Below, piece by piece: positions 6,484-10,957 of a stretch of DNA of 64,000 nt. The notes below the pieces were generated by a model, which was not told the origin of the DNA, did not search any database, and was given only the letters and a program-made list of their open reading frames with translations. The position numbers and the translations under genes are program-made. Numbering within the stretch: position 1 is the first letter of the stretch; each line of letters begins with the position of its first letter. Source of the DNA: Pseudoalteromonas undina (GTDB lineage: Bacteria; Pseudomonadota; Gammaproteobacteria; Enterobacterales; Alteromonadaceae); the NCBI RefSeq assembly GCF_000238275.3, contig NZ_AHCF03000003.1, positions 1,550,001-1,614,000 of the forward strand, in the 5' to 3' direction.

Positions 6484-6529
6484 ATTAAGTACAATTTATA
6501 GACTGAGCTCGATAGAACCGTAGAACTCT

Positions 6530-6561
6530 GTTGGGTGGCGCCTTTGGCTTAACCAACCTAC
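6530..6561 (-). repeat. REP-like palindromic element (inverted copy)
   Basis: On the minus strand this reads GTAGGTTGGTTAAGCCAAAG followed by GCGCCACCCAAC. It is related to the element at 6570-6605: GTAGG start, GGTTAAG or GGATAAG middle, CCACCC or CCATCC end. The two stand in opposite orientation with an 8-nt gap, as paired REP elements do. Confidence 0.6.
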
Positions 6562-6569
6562 CTTTAGAC

Positions 6570-6605
6570 GTAGGTCGGATAAGTGGCGAAGCCACGCCAT
6601 CCGAC
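6570..6605 (+). repeat. REP-like palindromic element
   Basis: GTAGGTCGGATAAGTGGCGA followed by AGCCACGCCATCCGAC. Outer arms GTCGGAT/ATCCGAC and inner arms GTGGC/GCCAC around GAA give a nested stem. A nearly identical copy lies at 41531-41566, 35 kb away, so this is a dispersed genomic repeat. Confidence 0.8.
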
Positions 6606-6666
6606 AAAAATGATGAATTGACTTGGGGCAACCCGATTTATCATGCTGTGTATAATATGCAAAATT

Positions 6667-6690: not shown

Positions 6691-7119
6691 TTACTCATAA
6701 TCAGCTAATGGCTCACTAATTGTCAGTGTATCAGTGCCAAAATCTAGCACCGCTTGGTATTTTCTAAAAAATGGAGAGCCTAATAATCCATGTATTATAT
6801 TGTCACCACCAGCTACCTGAACATGGTCTAGGTTTAGTGTTACAAACTCTGTACTTTCAAACAACTGCCCTGCTAATTCAAATTTCAAAACGTCTATTAA
6901 GCCCATCTTGTGGTCGGCTGTACCTAAACCTGCGGCATTTTCTTCACTAAACACTTCTTCTATTCCAAGCTTTTGAATACATGCCCTATCTAAAACAGAT
7001 GCACCCGCCGCTGTATCTAAAATTAAATTTACTTTATGCCCGTTTATTTTAGCTTGTATTATTTGATGACCTGTTTCTGTTACTTCAAATTTCAAACTTG
7101 TGGTTTTGGCTAATTCCAT
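6691..7119 (-). CDS. Retropepsin-like aspartic protease domain protein
   Basis: A 142-residue single-domain protein of the retropepsin-like (clan AA) fold, which acts as a dimer in known members. Seen: KVNLILDTAAGASVLD, where D35-T-A replaces the more common DTG catalytic triplet, and a C-terminal HGLLGSPFFRKYQAVLDF strand-turn typical of the family. No signal peptide or membrane helix is visible, so it should be cytoplasmic. Its target is unknown. It has its own downstream hairpin and sits just beyond the cassette array; since it has no attC after it, I take it as a resident gene or a fixed last cassette. The ATG at 7119 is preceded by AGGAACATTC, a fair ribosome binding site. Confidence 0.75.
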   Translation of the reverse strand: MELAKTTSLKFEVTETGHQIIQAKINGHKVNLILDTAAGASVLDRACIQKLGIEEVFSEENAAGLGTADHKMGLIDVLKFELAGQLFESTEFVTLNLDHVQVAGGDNIIHGLLGSPFFRKYQAVLDFGTDTLTISEPLADYE

Positions 7120-7452: not shown

Positions 7453-7553
7453 GCATAACGCTTGCCTAACCGGCGCGAAATAGCAGGCTAAAATTAGCGA
7501 CGAAGGAGCGCAAGCCTGCTGATTTGCGTCCGTGGTTTAGGCACTTGTTATGT
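7453..7553 (-). other. attC site 1 (3' end of the lipoprotein cassette)
   Basis: On the minus strand: R'' ACATAAC, L'' GCCTAAA, a central stem AGCAGGCT/AGCCTGCT around a loop containing GCTCCTTCGTCGCT, L' TTAGGC, R' GTTATGC. Spacing and the imperfect symmetry match bacterial attC recombination sites. The loop motif is shared with site 2. Confidence 0.85.
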
Positions 7554-7809
7554 TTCGCTACCACAAAAACTTGCTTTTAATGTTATCGCTCGGAACCATA
7601 CTTTTCTCTGTTCTGCCCAAAACATCGTACTTTTTTTTGGCAAAAACAGCCATGAAAGTAACCTCTGCTTTACCTAGGTAAATCGTGAATATATCCATCT
7701 CAGCCTGTTCATTTCATTCAGGTAATAAATACCTTATGAACTTCAACTGATGTGCTATAGATGAACTAATGGTTCTGAACTGTAAGGTTCCTTTTCTTGT
7801 TATGTAGTG
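7554..7809. other. Non-coding tail of the lipoprotein cassette
   Basis: About 255 bases between the lipoprotein stop and attC site 1. No open frame with a start and ribosome binding site was found. It is long for a cassette 3' region and may hold a decayed second gene. Confidence 0.35.
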
Positions 7810-8295
7810 TTAGTCGAAAACGATATCAGTTGTATAGTTAGGGAAAGCTTGTGCTAACCTTTTTTTCGATAATTGTAACCAAAGTTTACTTTCACCAATC
7901 AAAAATGGAGCTGAAGTATAAGCATTAATTACATTGCCGTGTTTAGGTAAGTTCATAGTGTCGATAAGTACATCGCCATCAGGTTTAACAAACTCGAGAT
8001 TATCAATATAAATTAAAGTGCCATGCCTTAAAAGAGGAGGAATACAAGGATCTGTCATAACAAATTTTTGCACCCGAGAGAACAAATCGTCAATTTTTTC
8101 TTTGTCATTAAAATCTATATCTTTGATAAATATTTGAAACCCGACTCTACTTTTACTTTCAGCTTCAATACAAATAAGACTAGCAGCAGGTAGCTCTGTT
8201 TTTTGAACCAGTTTTGAAGCACTATTTTCTTTTTTAGCGGCACATGAGGCTAAAAGGCACATTGACCCAATTAAAATTGATTTTCTAAGATACAT
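7810..8295 (-). CDS. Cassette-borne lipoprotein, function unknown
   Basis: A 161-residue protein with a clear lipoprotein signal: basic start MYLRK, hydrophobic core and lipobox LLASC with Cys at residue 18. The mature domain of about 140 residues has three Cys (in LICIEAE and TDPCIPP plus the lipidated one) and no motif I recognise. The start lies 25 bases inside the cassette boundary at 8320, the tight spacing usual for integron cassettes, and the gene is on the minus strand like its neighbours. It is probably anchored in the outer or inner membrane. Confidence 0.7.
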   Translation of the reverse strand: MYLRKSILIGSMCLLASCAAKKENSASKLVQKTELPAASLICIEAESKSRVGFQIFIKDIDFNDKEKIDDLFSRVQKFVMTDPCIPPLLRHGTLIYIDNLEFVKPDGDVLIDTMNLPKHGNVINAYTSAPFLIGESKLWLQLSKKRLAQAFPNYTTDIVFD

Positions 8296-8319
8296 ATAAC
8301 GTCATTCAACTAAATAGAA

Positions 8320-8419
8320 ACATAACGCCCTGTTAATGGGCAAAATATAGTTGGTTAGAGTAAGCGACGAAGGAGCAAAAGCCAACAGTATTTTGTCCTT
8401 GTTTAACAGTTTGTTAGCT
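8320..8419 (-). other. attC site 2 (3' end of the small membrane-protein cassette)
   Basis: On the minus strand: R'' AGCTAAC, L'' CTGTTAAA, a central imperfect stem (GGACAAAATA against TATTTTGCCC), a loop with TGCTCCTTCGTCGCT, L' TTAACAG and R' GTTATGT. L''/L' are complementary except for an extra base, as expected for attC. Confidence 0.82.
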
Positions 8420-8433
8420 GTAAATTACATTAG

Positions 8434-8625
8434 TTATTGCATGCCTGCCATTTTATATAAGAAATATGCAAAGCCAGAAAATGCTAGAGCGCCAACAACG
8501 ACCATGATTGTTAGTGTTTTTGATTTTGTCATTGAATCTACAAGTGCAACTTCGGTTTGCATCCGAATAAGATCTAGATTGTCATTTGATTCTTTTAACT
8601 GAGGCTTACCACTTTTCTGTTCCAT
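8434..8625 (-). CDS. 63-residue single-span membrane protein in a cassette
   Basis: MEQKSGKPQL opens a charged, mainly helical N-terminal half (residues 1-36), followed by one membrane helix (about 37-57) and a short end KMAGMQ. I place the start at 8625 because GGAG lies nine bases upstream. The longer open frame, up to 8724, runs through the neighbouring attC site, so its first 33 codons are very likely not protein. An ATG at 8640 in the same frame is a weaker alternative. The stop sits 14 bases before attC site 2. Function unknown; small membrane proteins of this shape are common cassette cargo. Confidence 0.6.
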   Translation of the reverse strand: MEQKSGKPQLKESNDNLDLIRMQTEVALVDSMTKSKTLTIMVVVGALAFSGFAYFLYKMAGMQ

Positions 8626-8661
8626 GAAAATATACTCCATTAGTTGATATGATTCTTGTAC

Positions 8662-8758
8662 TGCTAACGCCGCATTAAGGTGTGAGCGACGCTTGGCTAT
8701 ACTTGAGCGAAGCGAAAGCGCCAAGCGTTGTGAATCACTCTTAAATGCTTTGTTAGGT
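8662..8758 (-). other. attC site 3 (3' end of the P-loop cassette)
   Basis: On the minus strand: R'' ACCTAAC, L'' GCATTTAAG, a long central stem (ACGCTTGGC against GCCAAGCGT), L' CTTAATGC and R' GTTAGCA. L'' and L' pair with one extra T, the classic extrahelical base of attC. R'' matches the consensus RYYYAAC exactly. Confidence 0.88.
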
Positions 8759-8762
8759 AAAT

Positions 8763-9179
8763 TTACAAGTGAGAGTAAATTTGTTTAGCACGACCGATAT
8801 AGTATGGCGGATTTTTAGGACCACTATGATCTACGATTTCAACAGATGACACATTAAAACCATTATTCATCAAGGTTGATTCAATATGACTATACAGTGA
8901 ACCAGCTTCACTAGGCGGTCTTGTTGCTACAACTAACAAATCACGATTCGATAATGTAGCTAACAATGCTGCTAATGATGTTGTTGAATGACCTGCTTCT
9001 TCAAAACTCTGAGTTCTCACTTCGCCAGTAATAAGCTTATTAGTTTTGGAATCAGTGAGATGGAACACACGTTGTCCACCACTTAAACCGACTAAAGGCT
9101 TAAAATGCTCTTTGAGTGTGTAACTCTTCCCCGCAAAATGTTCACCAAACACAATTACTGCATTTTTCGCTGATGGCAT
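8763..9179 (-). CDS. Small P-loop protein in a cassette, function unknown
   Basis: A 138-residue protein that starts MPSAKNAVIVFGEHFAGKSY: a hydrophobic strand followed by GEHFAGKS (12-19), a good Walker A nucleotide-binding loop. A later RDLLVVATRPPSE could be the Walker B strand. It is short for a complete P-loop NTPase, and I recognise no family; a role in nucleotide-dependent signalling, kinase activity or defence cannot be told apart. I chose the ATG at 9179 with AGGA eight bases upstream, rather than the TTG at 9197. Its stop lies just before attC site 3 and its cassette begins at 9266. Confidence 0.65.
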   Translation of the reverse strand: MPSAKNAVIVFGEHFAGKSYTLKEHFKPLVGLSGGQRVFHLTDSKTNKLITGEVRTQSFEEAGHSTTSLAALLATLSNRDLLVVATRPPSEAGSLYSHIESTLMNNGFNVSSVEIVDHSGPKNPPYYIGRAKQIYSHL

Positions 9180-9259
9180 AAAACTGATCCTATACAAGCT
9201 GTTGATAGTACTTAAATAAGGGAGATTACTAACTTTTCAAGGGCTGAACTCAATTATTT

Positions 9260-9371
9260 ACCTAACAACTTTGTATCCGACATTTGTCGCTTTATAAACC
9301 GACAAATGTCCAAATATTACAATTAATCTAATTTAACCAGCGAATAAGCACATGTAAACAATTAGTTAGCT
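9260..9371 (-). other. Probable degenerate attC or array boundary
   Basis: ACCTAAC at 9260-9266 (GTTAGGT on the minus strand) is the left end of the P-loop cassette. About 105 bases away, GTTAGCT at 9365-9371 could be the partner box. Between them is a strong hairpin, GACATTTGTCG/CGACAAATGTC, at about 9279-9310. The inner L boxes pair poorly, and no gene lies upstream before serS, so this may be a decayed attC left after loss of a cassette. Confidence 0.4.
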
Positions 9372-9563
9372 CTCATCTAAATTTACTGGATGCAGAAAAA
9401 CACCAAAATGGTGGAGATCAGTAATATTGGACAAAAAGTGTTGTGCAAATAAACAATAAAGGCAGGTTTATTATTTTTACTGACAAATAGCGTAACTTAG
9501 ACTTTTATTTTCGCCTTGAGCCTTTCTCCTCGAACCTTTTCCCTTTAACCTTTTCCCTAAAAC
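9372..9563. other. Gene-free stretch downstream of serS
   Basis: Contains a short hairpin (CACCAAAATGGTG, about 9402) and a pyrimidine-rich run of CCTTTTCCC-like repeats at about 9520-9560. No open frame is convincing. Confidence 0.4.

Positions 9564-9643: not shown

Positions 9644-10957
<1,314 letters not shown>

Follow-up and report, generated by a model that had tools for sequence, protein, structure and literature searches.

The question raised by this locus is how three gene cassettes came to lie directly behind serS in Pseudoalteromonas undina with no integrase gene beside them. The locus is part of a 64-kb stretch of DNA (the window; 64,000 nucleotides, C3:1550001-1614000), and the first-pass annotation had read it as an integrase-less cassette array (CALIN) built by a distant or lost integrase. 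Comparison with other genomes of the genus (numbered G000 onwards) led us to a more specific reading. The locus is more aptly viewed as what remains, attI included, of a chromosomal integron linked to serS than as a plain CALIN. The array very probably descends from a chromosomal integron directly downstream of serS that lost intI and kept attI and three cassettes.

To identify attC sites, we trained a covariance model (R2) on 15 such sites, all taken from arrays linked to intI and none from the window. The covariation in the structure used as input for R2 exceeded that of all 500 shuffles. Up to E = 10, R2 matched the window at three places only, all on the minus strand and one behind each gene. 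The first-pass claim that each of three same-strand genes is followed by an attC was borne out (E 7.9e-20 to 7.2e-11), and the covariance search proposed as its check returned exactly these three significant sites. The segment 9261-9371, tried as a fourth attC, was rejected, as it gave no R2 match and aligned with attI of relatives. The end boxes of each cassette had also been said to match its own attC. This is true of cassette C (start GTTAGGT, own R'' ACCTAAC) and cassette A (GTTATGT and ACATAAC), where the match is perfect, whereas in cassette B (GTTAGCA and AGCTAAC) only three of the four variable bases match. At related sites, the boxes paired perfectly in 60 of 87 cassettes, with a mean of 3.18 matching bases out of four compared to 1.95 with shuffled pairing. 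Each unit of the array therefore consists of one gene and its attC, with end boxes derived from one circle (perfectly in two cases, in three of four variable bases in the third). These boxes and boundaries show that the cassettes were inserted by integron recombination. With three attC sites and no integron integrase adjoining, the locus is indeed a CALIN beside serS by the usual definition. The coordinates of all features are collected in Table 1.

Table 1. Features of the serS-linked cassette array and its surroundings (positions within the window).
Feature	Position	Strand	Remarks
attI, insertion site of the array	9260..9436	-	assigned by homology and position; crossover core GTTAGGT at 9266-9260
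Candidate Pc promoter	9330..9358	-	TTTACA-17-TAAATT; consensus match
32-bp palindrome inside attI	9279..9310	.	16-nt arms 94% complementary; conserved columns among attI copies
Scar at the intI position of G035/G064	9437..9522	-	homology to intI-bearing loci interrupted
Gene cassette C (first in array)	8668..9265	-	598 bp, attI crossover to attC crossover; start box pairs with own R''
attC of cassette C	8662..8758	-	R2 51.0 bits, E 7.2e-11
Cassette C gene	8763..9179	-	138 aa; ATG at 9179; no family
Gene cassette B	8326..8667	-	342 bp between crossovers
attC of cassette B	8320..8419	-	R2 84.4 bits, E 7.9e-20
Cassette B gene	8434..8625	-	63 aa, small protein; ATG at 8625; one hydrophobic stretch (by eye)
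Gene cassette A (last in array)	7459..8325	-	867 bp between attC crossovers; boxes perfect
attC of cassette A	7453..7553	-	R2 78.8 bits, E 2.5e-18
Cassette A gene	7810..8295	-	161 aa; lipoprotein-like N-terminus (by eye); no family
serS	9644..10948	-	434 aa; conserved left neighbour; present in 108/108 genus genomes
Aspartyl-protease-like gene, right-hand neighbour beyond array	6691..7119	-	Pfam PF13650, E 1e-10

The insertion site of an integrase-less array is recognisable here because related genomes keep the integrase beside it. The window attI is 82-83% identical to the DNA that separates intI from the first cassette in G035 and G064, and the serS-side flank of the window is 86-88% identical to the flanks of these two loci. 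Among the intI-less serS loci, attI showed a mean identity of 84% (55 pairs). Of the parts that make up a complete integron, the window thus has a putative attI, recognised by homology and position, and lacks intI, which is present at the same site in both G035 and G064, between serS and attI (in G008, intI is cut by a contig end). Cassette B has a counterpart in G035, the last cassette found in the serS array with intI, to which its DNA is 92.4% identical over 342 of 342 bp. Because the attI homologue lies between intI and the first cassette in G035 and G064, with intI beside serS, we take the window array as the remnant of a serS-linked integron that lost intI. No intI fragment was detected at the window site (no trace at E 0.05), so the loss itself is read from the relatives.

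In place of the intI of G035 and G064, the window carries a scar of ~85 bp between attI and the serS-side flank. A 115-bp stretch ending at the ATATTACT motif showed identities of 102/115 to G101 and 99/109 to G016, compared to 61/109 to the intI-bearing G035; in other relatives, the scar region is shorter or diverged. In G096, DNA from both sides of intI has been kept, including the first intI codons (by eye), and its intI loss therefore looks independent. One or two intI changes were obtained on the serS tree, which, with 6 of 20 inner branches well supported, is too weak to separate one loss from several.

A search of the window genome for integron integrases gave five matches, one strong (285.7 bits, C3:1496859-1497806) and four weak (at most 62.2 bits), none of them inside the window. 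The absence of an integrase gene from the window, as first annotated, was thus confirmed, and the proposed search for intI elsewhere in the genome led to the one strong match, ~60 kb away. It belongs to a complete integron with an integrase, five cassettes and its own attI (L007 7502-12812, C3:1492502-1497812). This nearby integrase passes the curated TIGR02249 cut-off and is 57% identical to the IntI of the locus type (G035). Its gene lacks a usual start codon at a position where one is present in three close relatives (L001 1470-1535); intact copies exist. A cassette gene of the nearby integron gave a match to PDC-S35, a candidate defence family (E 2.8e-73), and weaker ones to TIR effectors. 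We considered whether the attI of this integron belongs to the same family as the window attI and rejected this, as there was no match. It is present once in the window genome and matched 20 of 108 genomes, with 24 matches listed; half of these are <40 bp, and the 12 long ones are spread over eight genomes. Since G048, G050 and G092 have two or three long matches each, this attI is not strictly single-copy. In G092, a second, broken copy of the nearby-type integrase (C1:791411-792054) lies ~30 kb from an intact-looking one and has its own attI.

The window-type attI has other partners. A full-length or nearly full-length intI was found within 1.5 kb upstream of 7 of 63 attI copies, and the seven IntI sequences, one of them from G035 itself, all share 91% identity or more with G035 IntI. 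Part of intI remains at five further copies (G016, G101, G015, G017 and G013). The genus also has integrases that are 57-66% identical to G035 IntI; around 21 of their loci, ten attI queries gave no match at E 1e-4. By sequence comparison, the window-type attI goes with one IntI lineage, and the window genome's own integrase belongs to the others. The first-pass alternative of a distant or lost integrase is accordingly narrowed: a lost integrase agrees with the kept attI and with intI at the same site in G035 and G064, whereas the integrase ~60 kb away is of another lineage and lies beside an attI of another family.

The proposed course of events would begin with an ancestral integron platform directly downstream of serS, from which the integrase gene would have been removed, judging by the intI-bearing relatives. 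The attI and three cassettes with well-formed attC sites stayed. The integrase that inserted them was most likely of the lineage found beside the same attI in relatives. At present, the array probably changes slowly or not at all in this strain, because the sole remaining integrase is of another lineage, has another attI and lacks a usual start codon. The cassettes are probably transcribed from a promoter inside attI. The candidate Pc there is a weak consensus match from a scan that did not exceed chance (11 sites compared to 8.0 expected), but its hexamers sit at positions that are well conserved among the aligned attI copies.

The locus was also viewed as a true accessory insert in the first pass, and the relatives agree with this. 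The interval from serS to a sorbosone-dehydrogenase-like gene (named by eye) varies in length from 75 bp (G090) to ~10.7 kb (G096) among the 19 of 20 relatives in which both ends were found. Fixation of the same three genes at this place in all relatives, which would have spoken against an insert, is excluded, since proteins A and C have no homologues in other genus genomes (108 searched, E 1e-5), and protein B has one at 98% identity in G035 and others at 40-52% in eight further genomes.

Two other origins of the array can be set against the loss of a local integrase. Cassettes may be inserted at chance chromosomal sites outside attI (attG-type insertion). Such insertion is mentioned in the available text of PMC12901181 and PMC12444791. 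Had an integrase elsewhere in the cell placed the cassettes behind serS in this way, no integron need ever have existed there, and the window genome does have both a complete integron ~60 kb away and six other attC places or clusters without an attI-like sequence. At an attG-type site, however, no attI is expected at the insertion point, and the 175 bp before the first cassette of the window are the attI of an integrase present at the same site in relatives. Cassette B is moreover common to the integrase-bearing G035 locus. An attG-type origin is thereby largely refuted, and we regard it as highly unlikely. Slightly less credible still is that these 175 bp are no attI at all and belong to a common type of dispersed repeat with a promoter or regulatory role. 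The sequence does contain a promoter-like stretch and a conserved palindrome, but 56 of 63 copies end in a GTT core, the attC sites that follow (87 counted) are all in one orientation, and the sequence lies beside intI and before cassettes in all seven copies with full or nearly full intI.

The window attI is not alone in the genus. A 186-bp attI query matched 34 of 108 genus genomes. Counting matches of 80 bp or more, and with up to seven candidates scored per genome, there are at least 75 copies in 31 of the 108 genomes, with at least 20 genomes having two or more and the maximum being at least six. Of the 75 copies, at least 8 lie within 500 bp of one of the 31 integrase places taken from the matches listed. 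The window genome has three copies: one is next to serS and the others are at C3:1297589-1297762 and C4:594374-594541, and no integrase adjoins any of them. The second of these (L101 1497-4200, C3:1297.6k) lies beside a glyoxalase-like gene (by eye), keeps a LexA-box-like sequence and is followed by three attC matches. That every attC cluster of the window genome has an attI was considered and rejected, as six other places or clusters (L183-L188) have none at E 0.01.

Sixty-three copies were examined together with their surroundings (64 places in loci, minus a second copy in L135). Sites of the attC type were found downstream of all seven copies with full or nearly full intI, of two of the five with part of intI, and of 26 of the 51 without a trace of intI at E 0.05; among trace-less copies with at least 6.9 kb of downstream DNA, the proportion was 23/40. 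The other 25 trace-less copies had no attC within the downstream DNA examined, which for some was <6.9 kb. All 87 counted sites are in the orientation proper to attI. This count leaves out five weak matches (E 0.012-0.074), six weaker opposite-strand matches at same-strand sites, one duplicate, and the matches in L064 and L065, which are loci without a window-type attI. For the copies examined, these data show that the window locus is one of a dispersed set of integrase-less insertion stations, most attI copies being without an integrase. Six trace-less copies have, ~20 bp upstream, a sequence that we take to be LexA-box-like from its fit to the LexA box pattern, as have most integrase-linked copies; this shared feature suggests that these six once had intI too.

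When 84,980 named species genomes, possibly without the window genome's own records, were scanned for part of attI with a pattern that matches only 35 of 64 known copies, 20 stretches were obtained. Eighteen are from Pseudoalteromonas; one stretch in a Paludibacter MAG and one in Enterococcus asini may be chance. There was no match on phages, and the four matches in plasmid records are all on Pseudoalteromonas replicons of 0.68-0.91 Mb. The same ~2-kb insertion was seen at the attI core in five copies from four genomes (L133 1673-3725; G001 C28:576k; G005 serS; G036; G060), as if attI were its target; in L133, it carries a tyrosine recombinase and an IS91-type transposase.

Whether such stations are still loaded bears on the history of the window array after the loss of intI. 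One integrase acting in trans could feed a number of intI-less stations, in which case the window array would have been exchanged, in the past or at present, after its own intI was gone. No two of the 14 serS loci compared are alike in the first 400 bp behind attI, even though G000, G101 and G016 share the same kind of scar; in other locus groups, four pairs are alike. The mean identities of attI and of the 170 bp upstream were 0.84/0.62, 0.88/0.74, 0.97/0.92, 0.89/0.80 and 0.89/0.95 in five locus groups, and attI is thus the better conserved part in four of them, whereas the last group, which consists of one pair, shows the opposite. The first 170 bp after attI have a mean identity of 0.46-0.51 in the five groups, which we judge to be about the level of unrelated sequences. 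(The intI classes used in this comparison came from 47 loci with 46 distinct copies; in the recount on all 63, one copy, L141, changed from having no trace of intI to having part of it.) A 438-bp cassette is present, at full length and 94.3% identity, at intI-less stations of two species: in G098 it belongs to the serS array, and in G016 it comes first behind an attI on a different replicon. Integrase action on stations without intI would account for this, but it is one case among 87, and homologous import would account for it as well. Homologous recombination through attI and its flanks would look alike in general, as would repeated independent intI loss after cassette turnover, and the integrase matches of G101 are no better than E 3.1e-16 and fragments only. 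We therefore consider trans feeding of the window array rather unlikely, and would put forward only tentatively that genomes of this genus hold several stations, each an attI with a promoter, which would be under selection after intI loss and receive cassettes in trans from one integrase elsewhere in the cell or population. The differences among the serS arrays could also stem from homologous recombination that brought in entire alleles of the locus, with the stations as passive relics. This is possible, if somewhat doubtful: the cassette-proximal attI of G101 differs from that of G000 and resembles the G035/G096 type (by eye), but the correctly oriented arrays at 26 of 51 trace-less stations are left unexplained unless all of them lost intI after loading.

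The remnant of a serS-linked integron resembles the CALINs of IntegronFinder 2.0 (PMC9024848) in having attC sites without a nearby integrase and differs from them by the kept attI. According to the available text of that paper, attI sites other than those of class 1 are poorly characterised and the program does not detect them, and an attI-bearing locus would therefore be listed only as a CALIN. In Xanthomonas (PMC12444791), intI was lost in many lineages at one locus, and CALINs lie at seven further loci, in positions relatively conserved across species. The available part of that paper reports no attI copies at the further loci, whereas window-type attI copies recur in Pseudoalteromonas; the Xanthomonas arrays are described as stabler after inactivation, in contrast to the serS loci, which all differ right after attI. 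In Shewanella, where CALINs and lone attC sites distant from intI have been described (PMC9229058), most strains have attC clusters away from integrases; these clusters resemble the window array, although no attI is mentioned in the text available. The delta-attI gene cassettes of mobile integrons (PMC12901181, available text) contain attI pieces as part of unusual gene cassettes. They too are attI-derived sites off the usual platform, but in Pseudoalteromonas whole attI copies precede chromosomal arrays. Searches of the open-licence literature, judged by titles and the beginnings of abstracts, gave no report of dispersed attI copies and little on Pseudoalteromonas integrons. Recognising attI offers a way to separate decayed platforms from chance insertions, and attI copies are a possible reason for CALINs at conserved chromosomal places. 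With them, exchange in trans from one station to another also becomes open to a direct test; an attC x attI assay has been demonstrated in a phage study (PMC9892861, as far as its available text goes). If stations are fed in trans, many CALINs would be attI-bearing expression stations and not decayed arrays.

The cassette proteins A and B gave nothing significant in Pfam, NCBIfam or PADLOC, and the same was true of protein C, for which the query (8763-9182) was one codon longer. Protein C contains the sequence GEHFAGKS, presumably a P-loop-like motif from its pattern. The gene starts used here differ slightly from those of the longest open reading frames (in C and B, the ATG positions of Table 1). 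On the far side of the array, the aspartyl-protease-like gene is found downstream of serS also in G096, G065, G064, G035 and G016. Beyond it, a repeat-like stretch at 6527-6610 was seen, by eye, downstream of serS in G092 as well.
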